Shown here piece after piece: positions 47,178 to 49,733 of a stretch of DNA of 64,000 bases. A model generated the notes under the pieces. It was not told the origin of the DNA and searched no databases. It worked only from the letters and a program-made list of their open reading frames with translations. The position numbers and the translations under genes are program-made. The DNA is from Granulicella sp. L46 (lineage in GTDB: Bacteria; Acidobacteriota; Terriglobia; Terriglobales; Acidobacteriaceae). The DNA is taken from assembly GCF_009765785.1 (NCBI RefSeq), contig NZ_LMUT01000009.1, forward strand, positions 32,382 through 96,381, in the 5' to 3' direction. How positions within the stretch are numbered: the first letter of the stretch is position 1; each line of letters begins with the position of its first letter.

Positions 47178-49733
47178 GTGCCACTCTCCCCCCAACCCGA
47201 TGCCCCCACCTTCTCCGAAACCTTCGACGTCCTGGTCGTCGGCGCCGGCCACGCCGGCTGCGAAGCCGCCGCGGCCGCCGCGCGCATGGGCCTCCGCACC
47301 GCCCTCTTCACCCTCAACCTCGACCTCATCGCCCAAATGTCCTGCAACCCGGCAATAGGCGGTGTGGCGAAAGGCCATCTCGTCCGCGAAGTCGACGCCC
47401 TAGGCGGCATCATGGGCGAAGTAGCCGACGCCTGCGGCATCCAATTCCGCCTCCTCAACACCTCCCGCGGCCCCGCCGTCTGGAGCCCCCGCGCCCAATG
47501 CGACAAGGCCCTCTACCGCGTCCGCATGCGCGAAAAACTAGAGTCCATCCCCAACCTCTTCATCAAGCAAGCCGAAGTGATTGACCTCGTCATCGAACCT
47601 GCGGACGAGGCGTCTTCTCTATCCTCTATCCCCTATCCCCTATCCCCCGCTCTACCCCGCATCACCGGCGTCCTCCTCCGCGACGGCCGCCGCATCGCCG
47701 CCCACGCCGTCATCGTCACCACCGGCACCTTCCTCAACGGCCTCATCCACTGCGGCGAGCAGCAATACACCGCCGGCCGCTCCGGCGAACCAGCCTCCGT
47801 CCTACTCGGCGAATCCCTCAAGAAGCTAGGTCTCCGCGAGACCCGCCTAAAGACCGGCACCCCCCCACGCTTGGACGGCCGCACCATCGACTGGTCAAAA
47901 TTCGAAGAGCAACCCGGCGACGCAGATCCCACTCCCTTTTCCTTCCGCTCCCTCCAAGCCCTCGCAGATGTCTGTCATCCTAAGCGGACCCTGAACGCAG
48001 TGAAGGGGGAGCCGAAGGACCCCGAGGGCGCCAACCTCACCTCAGCCGTCGGTCCCTTCTCCACCCCAAGCGCCACCTCTAAAACCTCCGCGCACTGGAC
48101 ACCACCCCTCCGCCAAGTCTCCTGCCACATCGCCACCACCACTCCAGAAACCCTGGCCCTCATCCGAGCCAACGTCCACCGCAGCCCCATGTTCACCGGC
48201 CAGATCGAAGGCATCGGCCCGCGCTACTGCCCCTCCATCGAAGACAAAATCGTTCGCTTCCCCGACAAAACCTCGCACCAATTCTTCCTCGAGCCCGAAG
48301 GCCTCAACACCCACGAGGTCTACATCAACGGCATGTCCACCTCGCTCCCGATGGACGTCCAGCAAGCCATGGTCCGCAGCATCCCCGGCCTCGAAAACGC
48401 CGAGATGCTCCGCCCCGGCTACGCCATCGAATACGACGCCATCGACCCCACCGAACTAGACCGCACTCTCCGCGTAAAAAAATTCACCGGCCTCTATCTA
48501 GCCGGCCAAATCAACGGCACCAGCGGCTACGAAGAAGCCGCCTGCCAGGGCCTGATGGCCGGCATCAACGCCGCCCTCTTCGCCAAGTCGTTTTCCGTTG
48601 TTCCCTCCGAAACTTCGTCATCTCGACCGGAGCGCAGCGAAGTGAAGAGACCCCTGTATTTTGCGGGCAGCAGCGACGATCTTGACGCAGTCCCGCCTTC
48701 GAAGGCGCACGGCTTTAGCCGTGCCATTCAAACCAACTTGGAGACTGGGGCTTTAGCCCCAGAGGAAGACCTGCCACAAACCTTCACGCTCGACCGCACC
48801 GAAGCCTACACCGGCATCCTCATCGACGACCTCATCAGCAAAGGCACCGACGAGCCCTACCGCATGTTCACCTCGCGCGCCGAGTTCCGCCTCCACCTCC
48901 GCATCGACAACGCCGACACCCGCCTAACCCCCCACGGCCGCGCCCTGGGCCTCATCGACGACCAAGCCTTCGCCGCCTTCGAAGCCAAACAACTCCGCGC
49001 CGCCGCCCTCAAGCTCCTACTCGAAACCACCCGCCTCACCGACCCCGACCTCGCCATCATCGCTCCAGAAAATCGTCAGCCAGACTTGAGCCGTCAACGA
49101 AACTCGAGCCCCCAGCCAGACTCGAGCAATCAGCCAGAATTAACCTGTCATCCTGAGCGGAGCGATTCGCGCTCCTTGCGAATCGCGGAGCCGAAGGACC
49201 CCGATACTTCCGATCTCGCCACAGCCTCTCGAACCATTTCCACCTCAAATCCCCAAGCGCCCCCCACCCGCGGCGACCTCTTCGCCCAACTCCTCAAGCG
49301 CCCCGCCACCACCATCGAACAACTCCTCCCCGCGCTCCTACCCCGCCTGCAAACCAACCCCGCCTTCGCCCCCTGGCTAACCGCGATCTCTTCCGCGTCC
49401 TCTCTACGCTCTACACTCTACCCTCTATCCCCTGCCTTACCCGCTTGGGTCCGCAACGAGCTCAAAACCGTCGAAACCACCATAAAATTCGCCGGCTACC
49501 TCGCGCAGCAGCAACGCAGCATGGCCCGCCTCCGCGCCGACGAAGCCCGCACCATCCCCACCTGGTTCGACTACCGCGCCTGCTCCGGCCTCTCCCGTGA
49601 GATGGTAGAAAAACTAGACCGCGTCCGCCCCTCGACCCTGGGCCAAGCCAGCCGCATCTCCGGCGTAACCCCCGCCGCCGTCACCCTCATCCAGGTCTTC
49701 TTAGAAATCCAAGCCCGTGGCCGCACCGCCTGA
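47178..49733 (+). CDS. mnmG: tRNA uridine 5-carboxymethylaminomethyl modification enzyme MnmG with five repeat-derived insertions
   Basis: MnmG, with MnmE, installs the cmnm5 group on wobble uridine of several tRNAs. It has the FAD motif [70 protein letters not shown] and [15 protein letters not shown]. At about 851 residues it is ~220 longer than usual. The excess lies in five places (nt ~47612-47657, 47948-48104, 48589-48777, 49066-49260, 49387-49437), each carrying an interspersed repeat in frame, mostly in loops. All conserved blocks remain in one frame. The GTG at 47178 is chosen; GTG at 47175 is an alternative. Confidence 0.9.
47612..47657 (+). repeat. In-frame pyrimidine repeat (family F) in mnmG, first site
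   Basis: The stretch CTATCCTCTATCCCC onwards is translated as [15 protein letters not shown] between two conserved segments of MnmG. The peptide YPLSPALP recurs at 49405-49440. Confidence 0.75.
47974..48025 (+). repeat. In-frame family B repeat in mnmG
   Basis: GTCATCCTAAGCGG ... GGAGCCGAAGGACCCC is read as [18 protein letters not shown]. It lies within a ~50-residue insertion before LRQVSCHI. Confidence 0.75.
48617..48661 (+). repeat. In-frame family A repeat in mnmG
   Basis: GTCATCTCGACCGGAGCGCAGCG-type sequence ending CCCCTGTATTT is read as [17 protein letters not shown], the same phase as in the helicase (21328) and secreted protein (41268). Confidence 0.8.
48707..48762 (+). repeat. Two family D palindromes in frame in mnmG
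   Basis: GCACGGCTTTAGCCGTGC (48707-48724) and CTGGGGCTTTAGCCCCAG (48745-48762) are perfect palindromes read as HGFSRA and GALAPE. Both extend the same loop insertion as the family A copy. Confidence 0.75.
49147..49205 (+). repeat. In-frame family B repeat with long palindromic core in mnmG
   Basis: GTCATCCTGAGCGGAG, a palindromic core with GATTCGCG / CGCGAATC-type arms, and GGAGCCGAAGGACCCC, read as [20 protein letters not shown]. The core matches the one after the GH39 gene at about 45702-45763. Confidence 0.75.
49387..49437 (+). repeat. In-frame pyrimidine repeat (family F) in mnmG, second site
   Basis: CTCTCTACGCTCTACACTC onwards is read as [18 protein letters not shown], in the same frame as the first copy at 47612. 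It lies between two helical segments of the C-terminal domain. Confidence 0.75.

Follow-up and report, generated by a model that had tools for sequence, protein, structure and literature searches.

The window, i.e., the whole stretch of 64,000 nucleotides of Granulicella sp. L46 analysed here, carries an mnmG (gidA) gene whose product exceeds the conserved MnmG core by ~211 residues. The question raised by this locus is whether the surplus was captured in frame from repeats that also lie between genes, and whether the spreading unit is DNA or, as proposed in the original prediction, a protein-coding mobile element system. The open reading frame is unbroken, with 879 codons between stops and 850 residues when counted from 47181 (~850 codons), and it is the only full-length MnmG match in the genome (G000; 5.48 Mb, 39 contigs), so the gene is single-copy. 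Pfam GIDA and its C-terminal domains were detected in the protein. Alignment with E. coli MnmG (3cp2) yielded four blocks, broken at sites II, III, and IV–V, with an 18-residue gap at site I. The surplus is spread over five sites with repeat DNA in each (Table 1). Zones I–V measure 15, 53, 63, 64, and 24 residues in the window, and 0, 13, 3, 1, and 14 residues in the 657-residue protein of a member of the same genus (G021). The intact frame, the breaks in the E. coli alignment, and the relatives, in which these five zones likewise vary, bear out the predicted ~850-residue protein in one frame with its excess at five repeat-holding places. The F, B, A, and D repeats were re-found where they had been placed, both B copies being read as CHP.R...KDP and both F arrays translating as ..YPLSPALP. 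Two points were amended: the B match at site IV covers 111 nt and exceeds the core first described, and of the five proposed insertions the surplus stands at all sites, but site V looks less like a clean insertion than like an expansion or a replacement, its net gain over G012, G003, and G021 being only 8–10 residues (site V of G002 is longer still).

Table 1. Positions of mnmG, its variable sites, and related repeat copies (window coordinates unless a contig is named)
Feature	Position	Strand	Remarks
UvrD/PcrA helicase gene	19781..22720	+	in-frame A element at 21328, peptide SSRPEAEGRSGETPAFS (21329-21379)
Intergenic copy of MnmG-type B element	45701..45789	+	nhmmer E=4.8e-9
Weak D-D copy directly upstream of mnmG	47086..47135	+	nhmmer E=0.047 with Y1-flank profile; D hairpin at 47085
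mnmG (gidA) coding sequence	47175..49733	+	putative GTG start 47175 or 47178
Variable site I	47595-47666	+	CTATCCC heptamer array F at 47611-47652 (TRF: 47619-47647)
Variable site II	47952-48098	+	B element 47974-48073, frame CHPKR..KDP; nhmmer E=1.4e-8 with G003 intergenic-element profile
Variable site III	48585-48782	+	A element 48617-48661, then D-D hairpin pair 48707-48763
D-D pair in site III	48707-48763	+	two GGCTTTAGCC hairpins (48710, 48748) 38 nt apart
Variable site IV	49056-49268	+	B element 49147-49257 (111 nt), frame CHPER..KDP; nhmmer E=2e-15, model positions 1-108
Variable site V	49386-49448	+	heptamer array F at 49397-49434
G003 ~218-bp elements (L152)	C1:436631-436849, 447074-447292, 454973-455189		inverted B ends

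MnmG of the window was compared with that of 40 relatives. Of these, 23 belong to the genus, in which 25 relatives gave a match (G008 and G025, split or cut by contig ends, were left out), and 17 were taken from 136 matching genomes of other genera; the G007 sequence is cut by a contig end. The proteins ranged from 641 to 850 residues. Identity of the core to the window was 0.69–0.91, and the five zones differed strongly even between neighbours, with peptides such as CHPERSEG, VILSEAES, LRSAQDDN, GIREQG..NPYSLIP, LRAQGPE..PWALGP, and SSFQFQIS..LETRNSKLET. Recognisable repeats of different families were present in the zones of 17 of the 40 relatives (18 of 41 genomes with the window), family frequencies being biased upward as several MnmG of other genera had been picked for long frames; no recognised repeat signature was found in the MnmG zones of 23 of the 41 genomes. 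A, B, and C tags (at most two mismatches, overlapping) were counted 7, 13, and 12 times in the zones versus a total of 1.64 in codon-shuffled zones, and those in the core (12, 12, and 0) were mostly recurring coding motifs such as GGCATCCTGATCG. Heptamer arrays over the 41 sequences numbered 33 in the zones (14.8 kb) versus 0 in the core (73.6 kb), with 0.0 in the codon-shuffled control.

Changes were counted on the MnmG core tree by the Fitch method, in which gain and loss are not told apart; the heptamer class labels are crude, CCCTGG for instance mislabelling site V of the window, and the counts were therefore limited to A/B tags. B+ at site IV (5 of 41 genomes) required at least five changes, gains or losses, and at site I both B- and B+ required two changes for two genomes each. 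B+ at site II, found in the window and in its sister G012, takes a single change and may be ancestral. The MnmG inserts are turned over between species. The relatives’ MnmG also speaks against the three circumstances named beforehand as fatal to the original prediction, i.e., inserts as ancient conserved parts, assembly error, and pseudogenisation of mnmG. A pseudogene or assembly artefact is given next to no probability: supporting evidence was not found, the frame is intact with one full-length match, 114 columns are invariant over 31 aligned MnmG sequences (window included), and the same pattern is seen in other assemblies, among them that of the isolate Bryocella elongata DSM 22489 (G002).

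The repeats themselves are commoner in this genome than expected by chance. In 464 kb sampled of this genome, B was found in 22 copies, C in 15, E in 11, and D in 19, along with 13 period-7 arrays, and order-3 Markov surrogates (one per segment) contained 0 of each; loose A (2 mismatches) occurred 46 times versus 19 in the order-3 Markov surrogate. Tandem 43-nt copies bearing B tags were observed at window positions 45625-45710. B half elements are ~100 nt long with nested hairpins and a CCCGA tail. The stems of the repeats covary, with CCT/AGG at 18 of 45, CTC/GAG at 17 of 40, and TCC/GGA at 11 of 29, and over all sites at 82 of 835 versus 40 of 835 in a rotated-partner control. In G003, B forms inverted repeats at both ends of intergenic palindromic elements of ~218 bp (three read), and many further +/- B pairs are among the matches listed for G003. 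MITEs have terminal inverted repeats together with a target-site duplication.

A profile was built from six half elements of three intergenic G003 elements only, and searched against 72 sequences (the window, 20 stretches and 31 loci of the same genome, 30 of these loci having been picked as B matches, and 20 stretches of relatives). Outside G003 and G004, it matched MnmG sites IV and II (E=2e-15 and 1e-8), RecQ (1e-9), and the intergenic copy at 45701 (5e-9), and further C5:204361 (5e-8) and site IV of G002 MnmG (2e-7); the B copy at C5:204361 falls at the N-terminus of its open frame, where it may be non-coding. Both MnmG B inserts were matched over ~100 nt, and most remaining B copies of the own genome matched weakly, over the first 20–55 positions only. 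Judged by this similarity, the B inserts in MnmG are homologous to intergenic elements.

This match bears on a rival explanation in which the five loops are old unconstrained linkers growing by replication slippage or template switching at quasi-palindromes, their likeness to genomic repeats coming from shared mutational habits and local copying. Heptamer arrays are prone to slippage, the zones vary family-wide, inserts without a recognised repeat occur in 23 of 41 genomes, and site V looks like a grown native YPxTLPAW segment. Insert 11-mers were also not significantly closer to the 20 kb of their own genome than to those of other genomes (16 genomes, 0.141 vs 0.134, p=0.94). Slippage does not, however, explain why a single ~100-nt sequence recurs in RecQ, in MnmG, and between genes; the B inserts match the intergenic element of another species over this length, tail included, and A followed by D-D in site III resembles the intergenic order of B followed by D-D (window 10069-10216; L145 10509-10632). 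This rival is considered unlikely. Counting against repeat capture, insert length did not correlate significantly with repeat abundance (rho 0.24 and 0.27), nor was a relation seen with Y1 transposase count (rho -0.16); with third-position skew in the genus rho was -0.61 (n=24, not corrected for relatedness).

In-frame copies were also looked for in other genes, as the original prediction had suggested, and were found in those for UvrD, RecQ, and a TPP enzyme. The A element of UvrD/PcrA sits in a block of ~160 residues that PcrA is without; in an alignment of 13 UvrD sequences (own included; 13 of 24 proteins kept, 11 removed by a frame test), G025 carries GIREQGLGIRE and G027 QILRSAQDDK there or nearby. 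RecQ contains a B copy in frame between two HRDC domains, translated as VILSEAERSRRTP, and the TPP enzyme (L145 16633-18441) a heptamer array in frame in the linker from the middle to the C-terminal domain. Eighteen repeat-bearing ORFs were scanned besides L003 and MnmG; 11 of them lack any Pfam domain and are possibly spurious. In these three genes, which are among the 7 with Pfam domains, the repeat sits within a domain or separates two, and in the remaining 4 it precedes the first domain and may be non-coding.

How the copies are read decides what spreads. The same DNA family is translated as CHPER.. in MnmG and as VILSE.. in RecQ and in MnmG of G002, opposite-strand reading of a repeat family was found in MnmG of G005, G050, and G116, and A/B tags in MnmG occur in frames 0, 1, and 2 and on the minus strand. 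Since one DNA family appears in different frames and on both strands, the spreading unit is DNA and not peptide, and coding is incidental. A protein module with a conserved peptide was ruled out by the varying frame and strand, and the ‘protein-coding mobile element system’ of the original prediction is accordingly not supported; its comparison to Rickettsia holds insofar as a conserved enzyme carries intergenic repeats in frame where its sequence varies. Rickettsia palindromic elements (RPEs) are ~150-bp palindromes that occur both in intergenic DNA and, in frame, within genes of no common origin, and they are described as encoding a conserved peptide (PMC10969869). The repeats here are likewise intergenic and in frame in unrelated genes (MnmG, RecQ, UvrD), but they are read in several frames and from both strands instead of as one peptide, the host is an acidobacterium, and one enzyme offers five acceptor sites. 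No published report of in-frame repeats in acidobacterial genes was found in a literature search, which is not proof of absence.

The same observations weigh on a second rival, in which selection favours the inserts, be it for the protein segments they add or for RNA/DNA hairpins or quadruplexes by which translation is tuned or the gene marked. The reuse of the same loops, B+ at site IV in five genomes, and the resemblance of the heptamer arms to repeats described as forming quadruplexes (Rehm et al. 2015, PMC4692102) would fit this idea; insert peptide, frame, strand, and family differ among close species, however, and G021 manages with almost no inserts. Selection for the inserts is therefore rated as very improbable.

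By their structure, A/B/C/E appear to form a TGTCAT..hairpin superfamily like the CGTC-tagged REPs, among which RPE-4 and RPE-6 are counted (PMC3733652). Di Nocera et al. 2013 (PMC3733652) describe CGTC-tagged REPs inside the genes for UvrD/Rep helicases and tRNA pseudouridine synthases; the genes concerned here are those for UvrD, RecQ, and MnmG. Shared features are the C/TGTC tag, AT at the stem start (incompletely, as the second arm has AT or AC), a covarying stem, and no adjacent transposase. In contrast, A/B/C have long, variable, nested loops and lack a CCA tail, and B halves of ~100 nt exceed the REP size of 20–40 bp with a 4–5-nt loop and CCA-like tail; E is short. By loop and tail, A/B/C fall outside strict CGTC REPs. 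Among the CGTC hosts listed in the sections of PMC3733652 covered here there is no acidobacterium.

The D-D assignment in MnmG rests on the two hairpins and their spacing, the match to a profile of Y1 flanks over the full length being weak (E=0.28). At least one Y1_Tnp ORF was present in 26 of 28 genus genomes, own included. The own genome has one ORF over the cut-off, a partial match (positions 18-81 of 121, E=1e-7; L198 1365-2002) that may be dead, with D-D pairs on both sides in direct orientation. Among 21 Y1 loci (the own one and 20 further ones drawn from those listed), D hairpins flanked both sides in 6, i.e., the own locus and G002b, G004c, G005b, G006a, and G010b. In the five relatives’ loci (L305, L307, L309, L314, L317) the D flanks are inverted, unlike in the own genome. 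Some other Y1 loci have different matching hairpins of their own at both ends; B, C, or E stood beside none of the 21 loci, and one locus had an A-like tag ~470 nt off. B abundance correlated with the number of Y1 ORFs at rho 0.60, or 0.47 per Mb (n=28, uncorrected for relatedness and completeness). TIRtrons are Y1 tyrosine transposases with long, sometimes double-palindromic inverted flanking repeats that can form small genomic families, and one TIRYT group is acidobacterial, G. mallensis included (PMC3733652). D-D around Y1 genes in the five relatives fits this arrangement by description, and a transposase gene flanked by its repeat, as in TIRtrons and REP-RAYT systems, is seen for D-D in the 6 loci above. 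Differences are the direct flanks and partial Y1 ORF of the own genome and the D-D copy in frame in mnmG. D-D is probably the terminal repeat (TIR) of a Y1 transposase (HUH, RAYT/TIRYT-type), for which it is a candidate on the basis of these flanks.

Period-7 arrays numbered 72 in 464 kb versus 16, 21, and 12 for periods 5, 8, and 10. Heptamer classes are genome-specific: CAGGGCC had 58, 75, and 110 matches in G001, G002, and G024 and 0–1 in 17 of 28 genomes (control 0–1); GGGATTA reads the same when reversed as in its control, which is hence uninformative. In relatives, heptamer arms are ~30 nt long (four units plus two bases). Neighbouring arms were G-type on the left and C-type on the right in 11 of 11 pairs from stretches that were centred on mnmG throughout and had not been picked by arm order; a further 19 pairs had been picked by this very order. 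Left and right arms of one element were barely more alike than arms of different elements (e.g., G003: 0.85 vs 0.80), giving little sign of arm co-evolution. Heptamer palindromes with ~30-nt arms around unrelated spacers were observed in L279-L298, and some spacers resemble intrinsic terminators by eye. A telomerase-like end-extension origin of the arms, prompted by the G-left/C-right order, was set aside given several such terminator-like spacers. A 6S RNA lies on the minus strand at window positions 33014-33202, adjoined by a CTATCCC heptamer array at 32971-33002. The GGGNATC heptameric quadruplex repeats of Xanthomonas and Nostoc are dispersed, prefer four units, and are mostly non-coding, with under-representation in coding regions (PMC4692102). 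The 7-nt period and about four units recur here; classes without GGG, inverted pairs in fixed order, and in-frame use in MnmG set the present arrays apart. The classes without GGG (TTTCGAG, AACTGAG) would not be expected to form a quadruplex in the usual way.

Repeat orientation followed GC skew, which was -0.29 in the window and ranged from -0.31 to +0.30 in 20-kb samples. For strict A/B/C/E copies in 464 kb, the strand matched the sign of the local GC skew without exception (49 of 49); 0 were found in 7 flat-skew stretches (140 kb), and their density tracked |skew| (rho 0.81, n=21); the 19 listed D hairpins obey the same rule. Within one contig, the extreme skew flips sign in blocks (window 1-64000; L130-L149). 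IS200/IS605 elements spread in a single-stranded, replication-linked manner (PMC6006769), and Rehm et al. 2015 (PMC4692102) found that Xanthomonas heptamers have no leading/lagging preference. By the strand rule, A/B/C/E may also spread by a replication-linked single-strand route.

The explanation favoured with good, though not full, confidence is that REP/MITE-like palindromes and heptamer repeats are captured in frame and then sieved by selection, in the manner of RPEs and intragenic REPs rather than of a protein-coding element. A/B/C/E, the two-hairpin D-D, and the ~30-nt heptamer arms would spread genome-wide as DNA. D-D would be mobilised by a Y1 transposase (HUH, RAYT/TIRYT-type) working on single-stranded DNA, and A/B/C/E likewise through a replication-linked single-strand route. 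Copies entering an open frame in tolerant loops of MnmG would be retained and translated as added linker, and other arrivals in coding regions removed by selection. Mobility is suggested by the genome comparison, in which neither a target-site duplication nor a clean empty/filled pair has been established; that the elements transpose, that the inserts are neutral, and that a single-strand step takes part is what we infer.

New with respect to the systems compared would be the strand rule and the fact that, family-wide, one tRNA enzyme has taken up repeats in the same loops again and again. A broader proposal is offered tentatively, as one that could well be wrong: single-strand transposition directed by the replication strand (Y1 for D-D; another route for the CGTC-like families and heptamer palindromes) may continually supply selfish DNA to the same loops of MnmG, UvrD, and RecQ family-wide, a standing, sequence-agnostic source of linkers concentrated in domains of extreme GC skew. 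The locus offers a repeated natural experiment on the way selfish DNA turns into protein: a conserved enzyme can be followed at five loops through dozens of species, the intergenic source elements are in the same genomes, and a candidate transposase is available for one repeat family. Experiments could thereby address the entry of REP-like repeats into genes, a possible steering by the replication strand, and the price that a conserved tRNA enzyme pays for extra loops.
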